From Acidimicrobiia bacterium (GTDB lineage Bacteria; Actinomycetota; Acidimicrobiia; Acidimicrobiales; UBA8592): a stretch of 43,262 nt of DNA. Location: assembly GCA_030431575.1 (NCBI GenBank), contig JAUIIS010000007.1:1-43262 (forward strand), given 5' to 3'. Position numbers and translations under genes: made by a program. Within the stretch, counting starts at the first letter, position 1. Each line of letters begins with the position of its first letter. The notes under the pieces were generated by a model, which did not search any database, was not told the DNA's origin, and worked only from the letters and a program-made list of their open reading frames with translations. Below, in pieces: positions 25,514 to 29,491 of the stretch.

Positions 25514-26635
25514 ATGGCTGAAGCACCCAAGCTGAAGGACTACTTCACCCCTGAGGTCGTGGCGCACATCGGGGACCGGATCAAGACCCAGGTACCGACG
25601 TTCGAAACAGCGACGTTCACGACCAACGTCTTCAACAACGGCTGGGGCGATCTCACCTTCACCGAACGCAGCCAGCGCATCGCCGACGAACTCTGGACCG
25701 GGATGAGTCTTCCCGTCCGACCAGCCCTCGAAGCCCTCGTTGCCAGCCTTCCCGACGAACTCGCCGAGCCCGACGGCGTACTCAACGAAGGCTTCGACCT
25801 CTGGCCCTACGGCGACCTCATAGCCAGCTACGCAGTGTCAGATCTTGATGCAGGTCTTGAGGCCTGTTACGAACTCACCAAACGGTTTACCGCCGAGTTC
25901 GCCATCCGCCCTTTCTTGGCCGCCTACCCCGAGGCGCTCGATCGGCTTGCCCCCTGGGTCGACGACCCCAACGAACACGTCCGCAGGCTTGTGTCAGAAG
26001 GGACCCGGCCTCGCTTGCCTTGGGCGTCGCGACTCGACCTTCCTACCGACCAAGTCCTTGACCTGTTGGCGAAGCTACGCCGGGACCAATCCCTCTACGT
26101 CCGCCGCTCGGTCGCTAACCACCTCAACGACCTCGCCAAAGCCGACAGCGAACGCATCGTGTCAGTTCTCGAACAGTGGCACGCAGAAGGCGTGGCCGAG
26201 ACCGCCTGGATCGTGAGACACGCCATGCGAAACCACCTCAAGAACGGCGACCCAAGAGTGCTCGCCATATTTGGCTACGCGCAACCCAAGGTCACCGTCA
26301 CCGAACTGAACGTCATCCCAGCACAGCTACCTATTGGTGACGACATCACGCTCACCTTCGACGTCGCCAGCCAACACACCAGTCCCCAACAGCTCATGAT
26401 CGACATCGTTGTTGGCTACCGCAAAGCAAACGGCACCATCAGCCCAAAGGTGTTCAAGTATCGCGAGCTGGAGCTAGGGGCCAAAGACACACCCGCAGCG
26501 ATCGAATCGTGCACCAAGAAGCTGGCCATGGTGCAGCGCAGCACCAGGAAGCTCTATGCCGGCGATCACTCGGTCACCATCAGAGTCAACGGCCAAGATC
26601 TGGCTTCCACAAACTTTTCTTTGCTTGGGGTGTAA
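25514..26635 (+). CDS. DNA alkylation repair protein, AlkC-like
   Basis: HEAT-like-repeat DNA glycosylase, 373 aa, predicted to excise alkylated bases without base flipping. Helical repeats fill residues about 1-250 with the AlkC/AlkD signature YVRRSVANHLNDLAK. Residues about 260-373 look like an immunoglobulin-type beta domain (LTFDVASQ, KLYAGDHSVTIRVNG), which is characteristic of AlkC rather than AlkD. The start ATG has CAAACT 6 nt upstream, close to the TANNNT pattern. It is divergent from the MBL-rhodanese gene. Confidence 0.85.
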   Translation: MAEAPKLKDYFTPEVVAHIGDRIKTQVPTFETATFTTNVFNNGWGDLTFTERSQRIADELWTGMSLPVRPALEALVASLPDELAEPDGVLNEGFDLWPYGDLIASYAVSDLDAGLEACYELTKRFTAEFAIRPFLAAYPEALDRLAPWVDDPNEHVRRLVSEGTRPRLPWASRLDLPTDQVLDLLAKLRRDQSLYVRRSVANHLNDLAKADSERIVSVLEQWHAEGVAETAWIVRHAMRNHLKNGDPRVLAIFGYAQPKVTVTELNVIPAQLPIGDDITLTFDVASQHTSPQQLMIDIVVGYRKANGTISPKVFKYRELELGAKDTPAAIESCTKKLAMVQRSTRKLYAGDHSVTIRVNGQDLASTNFSLLGV

Positions 26636-26689
26636 GAACCATCGGCATTGGCCGTCTCCCGTGCATACCAACACACAGGAGACAATCCA

Positions 26690-27763
26690 ATGCACAACCC
26701 AAGCAAGCCCAACACCAAAAAGTTCACCCGCCAAGCCTTTATGGCGTTGGCCACATGCCTCGGCCTGATCTTTAGCCTCAGCGCACCGGCGCTGGCTGAA
26801 ACACCGCCACCGGGGCCGGCCATCGAAGCAGTGGCCAGCACCCCAGAGCCCCCAAAGCTCGACGTCGGCGAGATTGTGGCACTGCCGCTTCTCCCCACTG
26901 CCACGGTCAACATGAGCTGCGACGCCAACACCGCGCAGGTCCTGGTGGGCAACAAGACGCTCAAGGCTCATTTCGCCGAGATCACCGTTGATGGCGACAC
27001 CACCGGCCATCAGGTTCCAGCCGGCCAAGCACGAGAGCGAGTCATCAACCTGGCCGAGAACGACTCAGCACACATAGAGGTATCAGTCCTCCAAGAAGGC
27101 GTCATCTTGGATGCGACCTACACGATGGACTGCATCTTGCCCGACCCGGCATACAAGATCCTTGCCGACTGCGACACCGGTCAAGCGTTTGCCCGGCTGA
27201 TCAACCACGGCGACGATAAGGCCTACATGGGGGTGCAATACCCCAGCGTCATGCACATGGAAATCGCCATAGCTCCCCACAGCTCACAAGACTGGCTGCT
27301 TGCCGTCAGCCCCGGCGAGACCGTGAGCTTCGAGGTCATGGCGTCCAACGCATCGATTGGTTCTGAGGAGCTGACCTTCACCTGCGAAGAACCGGCCGCC
27401 CCCGCTCCCCCGGCACCCACACCAACCCCAGCTCCAACGGCGCAGCCCCAAGGCAGCGGCGGAGTCATCGAGCCCGTCGGCAACACCGGTGTTGACACAG
27501 AAACCGATGCACCCGAGATTATCGAAGGCGCAGACGTGGACAGCGACAAAGACGGCGACAACGAGGGCACCAGCGACGCTAACGACGCAACCGACACCGA
27601 AGAGTTCGCCGCTGGCGAAGACCTCGTGCTCGGCAGCGATGTCCTCAGCGCAGACGACACCAACGACGCCGGCCTAGCCCTCGGCCTGGTGCTCGGGGTA
27701 AGTGGCCTGCTGCTCATTATTGCCGCAGCCATCGGCCTCCGCCGCACCCGCACTGCGGCGTGA
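26690..27763 (+). CDS. Secreted membrane-anchored protein with duplicated Cys-paired domain, unknown function
   Basis: 357 aa. It has a signal peptide with cleavage about APALA/ETPP (residue 36), then two similar segments of about 75 aa. Each starts near a Cys (SCDANTAQVLV; DCDTGQAFARL) and ends at another (YTMDC; FTC), suggesting a duplicated beta-sandwich with one disulfide each. A Pro/Thr linker and a very acidic region follow. A C-terminal helix (GLALGLVLGVSGLLLIIAAA) with a basic tail RRTRTAA anchors it. No LPXTG. AGGAGA precedes the ATG. It ends 6 nt before the membrane-tethered sigma factor, so it may be its partner or target. Confidence 0.75.
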   Translation: MHNPSKPNTKKFTRQAFMALATCLGLIFSLSAPALAETPPPGPAIEAVASTPEPPKLDVGEIVALPLLPTATVNMSCDANTAQVLVGNKTLKAHFAEITVDGDTTGHQVPAGQARERVINLAENDSAHIEVSVLQEGVILDATYTMDCILPDPAYKILADCDTGQAFARLINHGDDKAYMGVQYPSVMHMEIAIAPHSSQDWLLAVSPGETVSFEVMASNASIGSEELTFTCEEPAAPAPPAPTPTPAPTAQPQGSGGVIEPVGNTGVDTETDAPEIIEGADVDSDKDGDNEGTSDANDATDTEEFAAGEDLVLGSDVLSADDTNDAGLALGLVLGVSGLLLIIAAAIGLRRTRTAA

Positions 27764-27769
27764 GCAACA

Positions 27770-29491
27770 ATGGGGACAGTGGCGCAACGATCGGACAGTC
27801 AATTGGTGGCCGACGCCATCGCTGGGGATTCCTCAGCGGTGGCGGTCGTCTACGACCGGTATGCGGACAGGATCTATTCCTTCTGCGTGTCAAGACTGTC
27901 CGACGATCAACAAGCCGCCGATGCAACCCACGAAACGTTCGTGAAGGCAGCCACACGCATGGGCACACTACGAGACCCCAGCAAGCTTCGGCCTTGGCTG
28001 TTTGCCATTGCTCGCAACCAGATCGTGGACCAGGCACGACGTCGTTCCCGCAACGCACCTCTCGAAGCAGCTGGTGACGTGCACGCCGATACCCCCGACG
28101 CCGACGCCAACCTCCTGGCCGCAGAGTCCGCCCATCTGTTGTGGGACGCGGCAGGGTCGTTGCAGGACCGAGACGTTGAACTCCTCGAGCTTCAGCTTCG
28201 AGAAGGCCTGGACGGAGAGCACCTAGCTGACGCCCTTGGGGTGACACCAAGCCATCTCCATGTGCTTCAGTCACGCATGAAGGACCGCATCGAGAAGGCC
28301 ATTGGCTCGCTGCTGATCGCCCGCCACGGCCAGGATGACTGCACCCAGCTCCAGGCATTGCTGCACGGTTGGGACGGGACGTTCACGCTTGAGGTGCGCT
28401 CGAAAGTCACCCGGCACGTCAAGCAATGCGACCATTGCCAGCGCACCAAGACCGCAGTGCTGGTCCCCGGCCGGTACCTCGGCGTCCTCCCCGTCGTAGC
28501 TGCCCCGGCACTGCTGCGCCCGCGCACCGCCGCGGCAATGCAACAAGCACTCGGGATCATCCCTGCTGCCCCCGGCCAGAGTGCACGCGCGACGAGACAG
28601 CCCGGTCCCGAACCGACCGGGACACGTGGTGGCGCCAACGGGGCCCCGGGCTCAGCGCCCCATAAAGCTCCGGTCGTCCTGGCCGGAGGCGGGGCCCGAG
28701 CGATGGGCACTTCCACCAAGCAGAGCTGGGCCTGGCGCGAGGACGGATTCCCGGAGCCGCTCCCCACAACAAGCAAACGCAAAGCACTGTGGTGGCTCAT
28801 GCTCCTTGGAGCGGTCCTGCTCTGTGCGGCCGGTGGCGTGGTGGCGTACGCCGCCAGCGACCGAGGTTCAGGCCCCGACCTCGCTCCGCCTGCGACGGCC
28901 ACACCAGCCGTTGATGAGACCCCCACCAGCGAGCCTGCGCCTACCGCGACAACGACCCCCGAGCCCTCAGCCACACCAGTGCCCGCCCCATCGGCCACAG
29001 CGCCACCATCACCACCGGCGACGTCGATTCCGCCAACCAGCGTTCCTCCTGCGACGGTCCCGCCGCGGACAATCCCACCCACACCGAATCCACCGACGCC
29101 CGCTCCGAGGCCAACCCAAACCGCAACGCCCGAGCCCACCGCAACACCAGAGCCAACTGCCACCGCCACCCCCGCTGATCGAACCCCACCTGAGATTCTC
29201 CGGTTCACCTCACCTGGCCAGGCTTGTACCCGGGCACCTATCAACGTCGCGGTATTGGCGTCCGACGACGTGGGGGTTGTGGCGGTGACCGTGGAGTGGT
29301 CACACACCAATGCCTCAGGAGGTGTGGTGCAGCTCAGCTCTCAAGGGGGCGGCACGTTCTCGGGCACCGTTGGCCCGGTGACTACAACCGGCACCATCTC
29401 GGCGCTAGCGACCGCCGCCGACGCCGCTGGCAATAGCACCAGCCGTAGTCTCAACATCACCGTGACGAGTTGCGCGGTCCTGGGGAACTAG
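27770..29491 (+). CDS. ECF sigma factor fused to zinc-finger, membrane helix and extracellular domain
   Basis: 573 aa. Sigma2 lies at about 10-95 (AVVYDRYADRIYSFC, KLRPWLFAIARNQIVDQARR) and sigma4 at about 120-180 (HLADALGVTPSHLHVLQSRM). An anti-sigma-type zinc motif HVKQCDHC (H-x3-C-x2-C) is near 216-223. After a low-complexity stretch, one membrane helix (WWLMLLGAVLLCAAGGVVAY, about 341-360) leads to a long Pro/Thr linker and a C-terminal Ig-like domain with two Cys. This puts a sigma factor, its likely inhibitor and an outside sensor in one chain, as in some actinobacterial ECF groups with C-terminal extensions. It lies 6 nt after the anchored-protein gene and is followed by a terminator. 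Confidence 0.88.
   Translation: MGTVAQRSDSQLVADAIAGDSSAVAVVYDRYADRIYSFCVSRLSDDQQAADATHETFVKAATRMGTLRDPSKLRPWLFAIARNQIVDQARRRSRNAPLEAAGDVHADTPDADANLLAAESAHLLWDAAGSLQDRDVELLELQLREGLDGEHLADALGVTPSHLHVLQSRMKDRIEKAIGSLLIARHGQDDCTQLQALLHGWDGTFTLEVRSKVTRHVKQCDHCQRTKTAVLVPGRYLGVLPVVAAPALLRPRTAAAMQQALGIIPAAPGQSARATRQPGPEPTGTRGGANGAPGSAPHKAPVVLAGGGARAMGTSTKQSWAWREDGFPEPLPTTSKRKALWWLMLLGAVLLCAAGGVVAYAASDRGSGPDLAPPATATPAVDETPTSEPAPTATTTPEPSATPVPAPSATAPPSPPATSIPPTSVPPATVPPRTIPPTPNPPTPAPRPTQTATPEPTATPEPTATATPADRTPPEILRFTSPGQACTRAPINVAVLASDDVGVVAVTVEWSHTNASGGVVQLSSQGGGTFSGTVGPVTTTGTISALATAADAAGNSTSRSLNITVTSCAVLGN

Follow-up and report, generated by a model that had tools for sequence, protein, structure and literature searches.

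A putative auto-activating operon encoding a membrane-tethered ECF sigma factor and an anchored surface protein in an Acidimicrobiia bacterium

An anchored protein and a one-chain sigma factor encoded side by side

The window, i.e. the whole stretch of 43,262 nucleotides that was analysed, is one contig of the draft genome (4.17 Mb, 83% complete) of an Acidimicrobiia bacterium. Two open reading frames are found in it 6 nt apart, as had been described in an earlier note on this DNA: P0001 (26690-27763, 357 aa) upstream and P0002 (27770-29491, 573 aa) downstream, both on the forward strand, as are all other features of the window given below. A ribosome-binding site, AGGAG, is read from the sequence ahead of the P0001 gene (26677-26681), and a GTG at 27779 is a possible alternative start codon of P0002. 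These are not chance ORFs, as comparison with homologs from several families showed each of the two frames to be conserved.

P0002 starts with an extracytoplasmic function (ECF) sigma factor. Residues 28-94 (27851-28051) matched sigma-70 region 2 in a Pfam scan (Sigma70_r2, PF04542, E 7e-13) and residues 23-177 matched the ECF superfamily TIGR02937 (E 9e-19), the helices of region 4 lying at about residues 120-180 (28127-28309) in this match and in the structural model. The length of this part leaves no sigma3, so that only sigma2 and sigma4 are present, as in ECF factors, and Foldseek matched the N-terminal part structurally to SigW, BldN and AlgU. A zinc anti-sigma motif, C191-x24-H216-x3-C220-x2-C223 (28340-28438), follows. 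Its H-x3-C-x2-C part had been recognized in the earlier note, but C191 had been missed; this residue is the likely fourth ligand upstream of the signature that defines class I zinc anti-sigma (ZAS) domains, and all four residues are invariant in 38/38 P0002 homologs and are also present in A1 and A5. On the cytoplasmic side, after the zinc domain and ahead of the membrane helix, a juxtamembrane motif, WAWREDGFP (28727-28753, GFP at residues 326-328), is conserved in homologs. In the corresponding alignment columns of this W-x-W-x-x-D-G-F-P motif, G is found in 32, F in 29 and P in 33 of the 38 homologs.

The membrane helix comprises residues 343-361 (28796-28852, hydropathy 2.24) and is part of a longer helix, residues 336-363, in the AlphaFold2 model. 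Its flanks are rich in K/R on the N-terminal side and poor in charges on the C-terminal side; over the homologs, the mean number of K+R was 3.1 on the N-side vs 1.0 on the C-side, with N>C in 96/117. A Pro/Thr stalk, modelled as low-confidence coil (about residues 365-470, 28862-29179), leads to an all-beta domain (29186-29473) that was confidently modelled as a beta-sandwich at about residues 475-566 (pLDDT about 90-97). C486 is inside this sandwich and C568 just past its end. Foldseek matched the domain to PKD and Ig-like domains, with TM-scores by target of 0.71-0.76, and the Pfam scan gave a weak Big_13 match. The positive-inside bias, the membrane helix and the confidently modelled ectodomain support an N-in/C-out topology, consistent with the membrane crossing that the earlier note had predicted. 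Domain matches, hydropathy and the AlphaFold2 model thus confirmed the layout previously proposed for P0002: a single chain in which an ECF sigma2-sigma4 is joined to a zinc anti-sigma motif, a membrane helix, a Pro/Thr stalk and a Cys-containing external beta domain, now seen to be Cys-paired and Ig/PKD-like.

P0001 starts with a signal peptide. Two Cys-paired domains (C77-C148, 26918-27133; C161-C232, 27170-27385) and a Pro/acidic stalk follow, and a C-terminal helix with the tail RRTR ends the chain, in agreement with the anchored protein with duplicated Cys-paired domains of the earlier note. The four Cys residues are invariant in 4 orthologs and probably pair as two disulfides, C77/C148 and C161/C232. 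The predicted transmembrane anchor (about residues 330-348, 27677-27733) rests on hydropathy and on a model helix at residues 325-356; the single-sequence AlphaFold model of P0001 was poor (mean pLDDT 46.5) and was used for this helix alone. No Pfam family covers P0001. We found no LPXTG-type sortase motif before its C-terminal helix, whereas anchored partners in other families do have LAFTG, LAVTG or LPHTG.

Relatives of the fusion and its pairing with an anchored gene

The nearest named relatives of the fusion are in Acidimicrobiia/Acidimicrobiales metagenome assemblies, and remoter ones occur in Mycolicibacterium, Actinophytocola, Streptosporangiales and others. When genome contigs were scanned with the single P0002 sequence there was no match, but an alignment of closer homologs did find relatives. 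With residues 1-250 of P0002 as the query, 69 of 198 sampled genomes of the order matched the sigma and zinc part at 1e-15, a count that also takes in some ordinary ECF factors. The ectodomains differ among fusions: many are Cys-paired and Ig-like, some have extra BACON-like domains and one has PASTA repeats. In the latter (genome G033, L042:1510-3024), the layout is the same and the external part consists of two PASTA domains (PF03793, E 1.5e-17), which suggests a peptidoglycan-sensing one-chain sigma factor. In two further fusions (L039 and L043), long repeat-like ectodomains replace the Ig-like domain.

ECF factors with C-terminal membrane extensions are known, as the earlier note had stated, and are represented by ECF48, ECF52 and ECF53. 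One of the closest known counterparts is SCO4117 (ECF52) of Streptomyces coelicolor, which like P0002 joins an ECF sigma factor, a zinc-finger anti-sigma domain, a transmembrane region, a Pro-rich stalk and an external domain in one chain, and for which autoregulation and a proteolytic or conformational release have been proposed (PMC5826349). The zinc finger, the transmembrane helix and the Pro-rich extension that define the C-terminal part of ECF52 (PMC5826349) are all present in P0002. Yet SCO4117 ends in a carbohydrate-binding module (PMC5826349), whereas the Pfam scan found none in P0002, which has a Cys-paired Ig/PKD-like domain at its terminus. Nor has an anchored surface protein co-transcribed with SCO4117 been described, whereas P0002 has P0001 upstream.

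The actinobacterial groups ECF48 and ECF53 have a C-terminal zinc finger and one or two transmembrane helices, and proteolytic activation is expected for them; P0002 resembles them, by description, in its zinc finger and transmembrane fusion (PMC8999054). A 42% identical relative of P0002 (L199) belongs to Mycolicibacterium chlorophenolicum, as does the ECF48 example (a match by species, not by accession). Unlike P0002, L199 has no folded ectodomain and finishes with a Pro-rich tail. In IutY of Pseudomonas putida (ECF243), too, sigma factor and membrane anti-sigma domain are fused, and regulated proteolysis sets the sigma factor free (PMC8999054), but IutY belongs to Gram-negative iron-starvation cell-surface signalling, whereas P0002 is in an actinobacterial envelope and has no receptor or siderophore gene beside it. 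Finally, the H-x3-C-x2-C signature is shared with the class I zinc anti-sigmas RsrA, ChrR and RsiW, in which the anti-sigma domain sandwiches or wraps the sigma domains (PMC7406223); these are separate from their sigma factors, whereas P0002 carries both in one chain.

The earlier note had set co-occurrence of the two genes in relatives as a test on which its proposal could fail, and the anchored gene was indeed found to co-occur with the fusion. Relatives of P0001 are scarce (5/397 genomes of the order in a profile search). In a genome of another family (G286), the gene immediately upstream of a fusion, in the same orientation, encodes a P0001 homolog (E 1e-28, 36% identity over 230 aa). HyVt-434 (Acidimicrobiales, L215) has a P0001 ortholog in which all four Cys are conserved, and the fusion encoded immediately downstream of it is 57% identical to P0002 over the part compared. 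A third genome (G094) has both genes, the fusion being 67% identical, on separate short contigs, so that adjacency is not visible there. In the sister genus g2, an anchored Cys-domain protein is encoded near the fusion, usually in divergent orientation, in 7/7 fusion-bearing genomes, as against 1/11 fusion-lacking ones, where it is a fragment at a contig edge. Profile comparison of P0001 with the g2 anchored family gave partial alignments (the tail or the N-terminal third) at a probability of 61-68%, and the two are possibly homologous.

Over Acidimicrobiales loci, an anchored type-I gene occupied position -1 of 11/48 fusions vs 19/609 background genes (p 2e-6, kinship ignored, though relatedness of the genomes affects such gene-order statistics), and outside the family of the window of 9/45 vs 15/528. 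The type-I detector is crude: one of the 11 cases (L231) was a false positive by eye, and some g2 cases were missed where small spurious ORFs intervene. In Actinophytocola, the anchored type-I gene is at +1 of the fusion, and most fusions of the order have no anchored neighbour. A different arrangement was seen in genome G167 (L065, L185), where the gene for an anchored 143-aa protein, after a AAGTGTCAG-type promoter, lies between two tandem sigma fusions. Because P0001 orthologs are present upstream of fusions in two other Acidimicrobiales genomes and anchored proteins accompany all seven g2 fusions, the pairing of P0001 with the fusion is real.

A predicted promoter element with fixed spacing

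The upstream regions of anchored and sigma genes have in common a bipartite element, GGGTGTAA-N17-YRTCT. In the window it reads GGGTGTAA-N17-CGTCT (26628-26657, with the -35 at 26628-26635 and the -10 at 26653-26657) and, given the conservation of its spacing, is predicted to be an autoregulatory ECF promoter. It ends 32 nt ahead of the start codon of P0001, and its TAA doubles as the stop codon of the gene upstream of P0001. Searching sampled Acidimicrobiales loci for the -35 word alone, we found YRTCT exactly 17 nt away in 19/28 cases. No other spacing recurred comparably; the one at 22 nt (7 times) arises from an additional TATCT that accompanies some of these sites. A GAAC...CGTC promoter, read by eye in the same region, was dropped, its 13 nt spacing being too short. 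The element precedes the anchored gene in the window, in G286 and in g2, and the fusion gene in G094, G057 and g2, as well as one divergent gene in G057.

In the 4.17 Mb genome of the window there are only two exact sites, the one just described and C365:3229, which is 34 nt ahead of an 85-aa ORF. Allowing up to one mismatch gave 10 sites vs 9 for the reversed control, a set at chance level, and we treated one-mismatch sites as individual leads only. Among these leads, a secreted PKD and RTX-repeat protein (L244:1561-2436, C361 of the same genome), 30 nt after a one-mismatch copy, is possibly a further regulon member. The 85-aa ORF at the exact site has a paralog after a one-mismatch copy (L238:1565-1822 on C365 and L242:1576-1833 on C253, respectively, both with xxKLAALDLxxxExxLLxxLL...).

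In 15 related genomes, 38 exact sites were found vs 0 for the reversed pattern. The loci of the fusion and anchored genes, in which the motif was originally recognized, hold 17 of them, and 21 are elsewhere. The seven fusion-bearing g2 genomes account for 33 of the 38, and four fusion-lacking family members had 0, 0, 1 and 0; a genome with a 50% identical fusion (G104) had no exact copy. At the g2 sites away from the pair, 17 of which were examined, a start codon lies 28-36 nt downstream in 16. In 12 of the 17, the encoded protein has an N-terminal signal peptide or lipoprotein signal; members of a short secreted family (...ASASPHYTDW...) and a second anchored protein with Cys domains are among these twelve. 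The remaining 5 sites precede the gene for a 61-aa protein. This 61-aa ORF (MNTHTGSSTMSGKAALWALYRGSQ...CNFRKEFLDWCEIQNDEL; g2 loci L255, L262, L270 and L277) starts 36 nt after the promoter, lacks a signal peptide and is followed by a conserved 120-aa gene.

The element changes with distance from the window. In a distant clade (f20), AAGTGTCAG replaces GGGTGTAAG, and 6 of the 7 occurrences of AAGTGTCAG in sampled loci are just before the anchored gene beside the fusion; HyVt-434 has an intermediate form, GGGTGTCAG. An altered promoter that goes with the fusion is as expected if promoter and sigma factor co-diverge.

Output, sensor or both

These findings suggest that the locus is an auto-activating operon for a membrane-tethered ECF sigma factor with the surface protein as the main predicted target, a reading that we consider probable. 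The zinc domain would inhibit the fused sigma factor, and an envelope signal acting on the Ig/PKD-like domain would free the latter through proteolysis or a conformational change. The freed sigma factor would then read GGGTGTAA-N17-YRTCT promoters, as their conservation suggests. Since the promoter stands 32 nt before the P0001 gene, P0001 and P0002 would be driven together, resulting in positive autoregulation and in production of the surface protein. The regulon would be small and directed to the envelope, in line with the secreted, lipoprotein and anchored products found in relatives. Of the products of the switch, the anchored protein is most likely the main one, and it may in addition act back on the ectodomain. 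The earlier note had proposed a two-protein envelope sensor; co-occurrence and the topology signals agree with this interpretation, but on the promoter evidence the anchored protein is first of all a predicted target, i.e. a co-regulated product, of the sigma factor.

We considered the possibility that the two genes are adjacent by coincidence. Many relatives lack the adjacency, but its conservation between orthologs in three genomes, the co-loss in g2 and the shared promoter largely refute this idea, which now appears very improbable. The promoter might also belong to a different ECF factor, the fusion gene being merely one of its targets, and the genome of the window does contain about ten other ECF-like sigma genes. 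Yet motif abundance follows the fusion (33 sites in the seven g2 genomes that have it, 1 in the four genomes that do not), and in G094, G057 and g2 the motif stands ahead of the fusion's own gene, which is the usual sign of autoregulation; we regard another owner of the promoter as improbable.

The main alternatives concern the role of the anchored protein. In one, it is an output only, a structural or protective surface protein, and the fusion alone does the sensing. The dominance of envelope products in the regulon of relatives speaks for this, as does the characterised relative SCO4117, for which no partner has been described and which influences development and surface genes (PMC5826349); we lean slightly towards it, although the anchored gene stays next to the fusion to a greater extent than other targets, even in a rearranged, divergent orientation. 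A role in co-sensing or feedback would explain why this gene, and not the other targets, stays there. Signalling chains such as cell-surface signalling have an operon-encoded surface partner. By analogy, the anchored protein could supply the signal input, binding the fusion's ectodomain and controlling release, with autoregulation making a feedback loop. This would fit with the tight co-occurrence and adjacency of the genes, with the extracellular, Cys-paired and stalked nature of both proteins, and with their predicted co-expression from one promoter. However, the same promoter also precedes genes for secreted peptides and lipoproteins that have no sigma neighbour, so that co-regulation alone is explained by the anchored protein being a target, and many fusions have no anchored neighbour; we therefore hold a signal-input role to be rather doubtful. 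More speculative still is a closed surface feedback circuit, in which a class of actinobacterial one-chain switches would activate their own gene and that of the adjacent anchored protein through a co-evolving promoter, the anchored protein serving as an extracellular ligand or gauge read by the ectodomain.

To return to the predicted auto-activating operon, what is new in it is the pairing with an anchored protein and the fixed-spacing promoter, the single-chain fusion itself being already known (ECF48/52/53). For SCO4117, the proposed motif is CSGYN-17-SRHA, vs GGGTGTAA-N17-YRTCT here (PMC5826349). Neither the pairing nor the promoter and its regulon, nor their co-divergence, were found in the literature searched, which left out the 2021 ECF reclassification, a source likely to report genomic contexts; a literature text search for the promoter motif returned nothing relevant.

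Little work has been done on single-chain sigma factors that have an external domain, a route by which a signal may pass from the surface to RNA polymerase within one protein. Here a conserved surface partner is predicted along with a specific promoter and its small regulon, which makes the questions of sensing, release and feedback directly testable by reporter.
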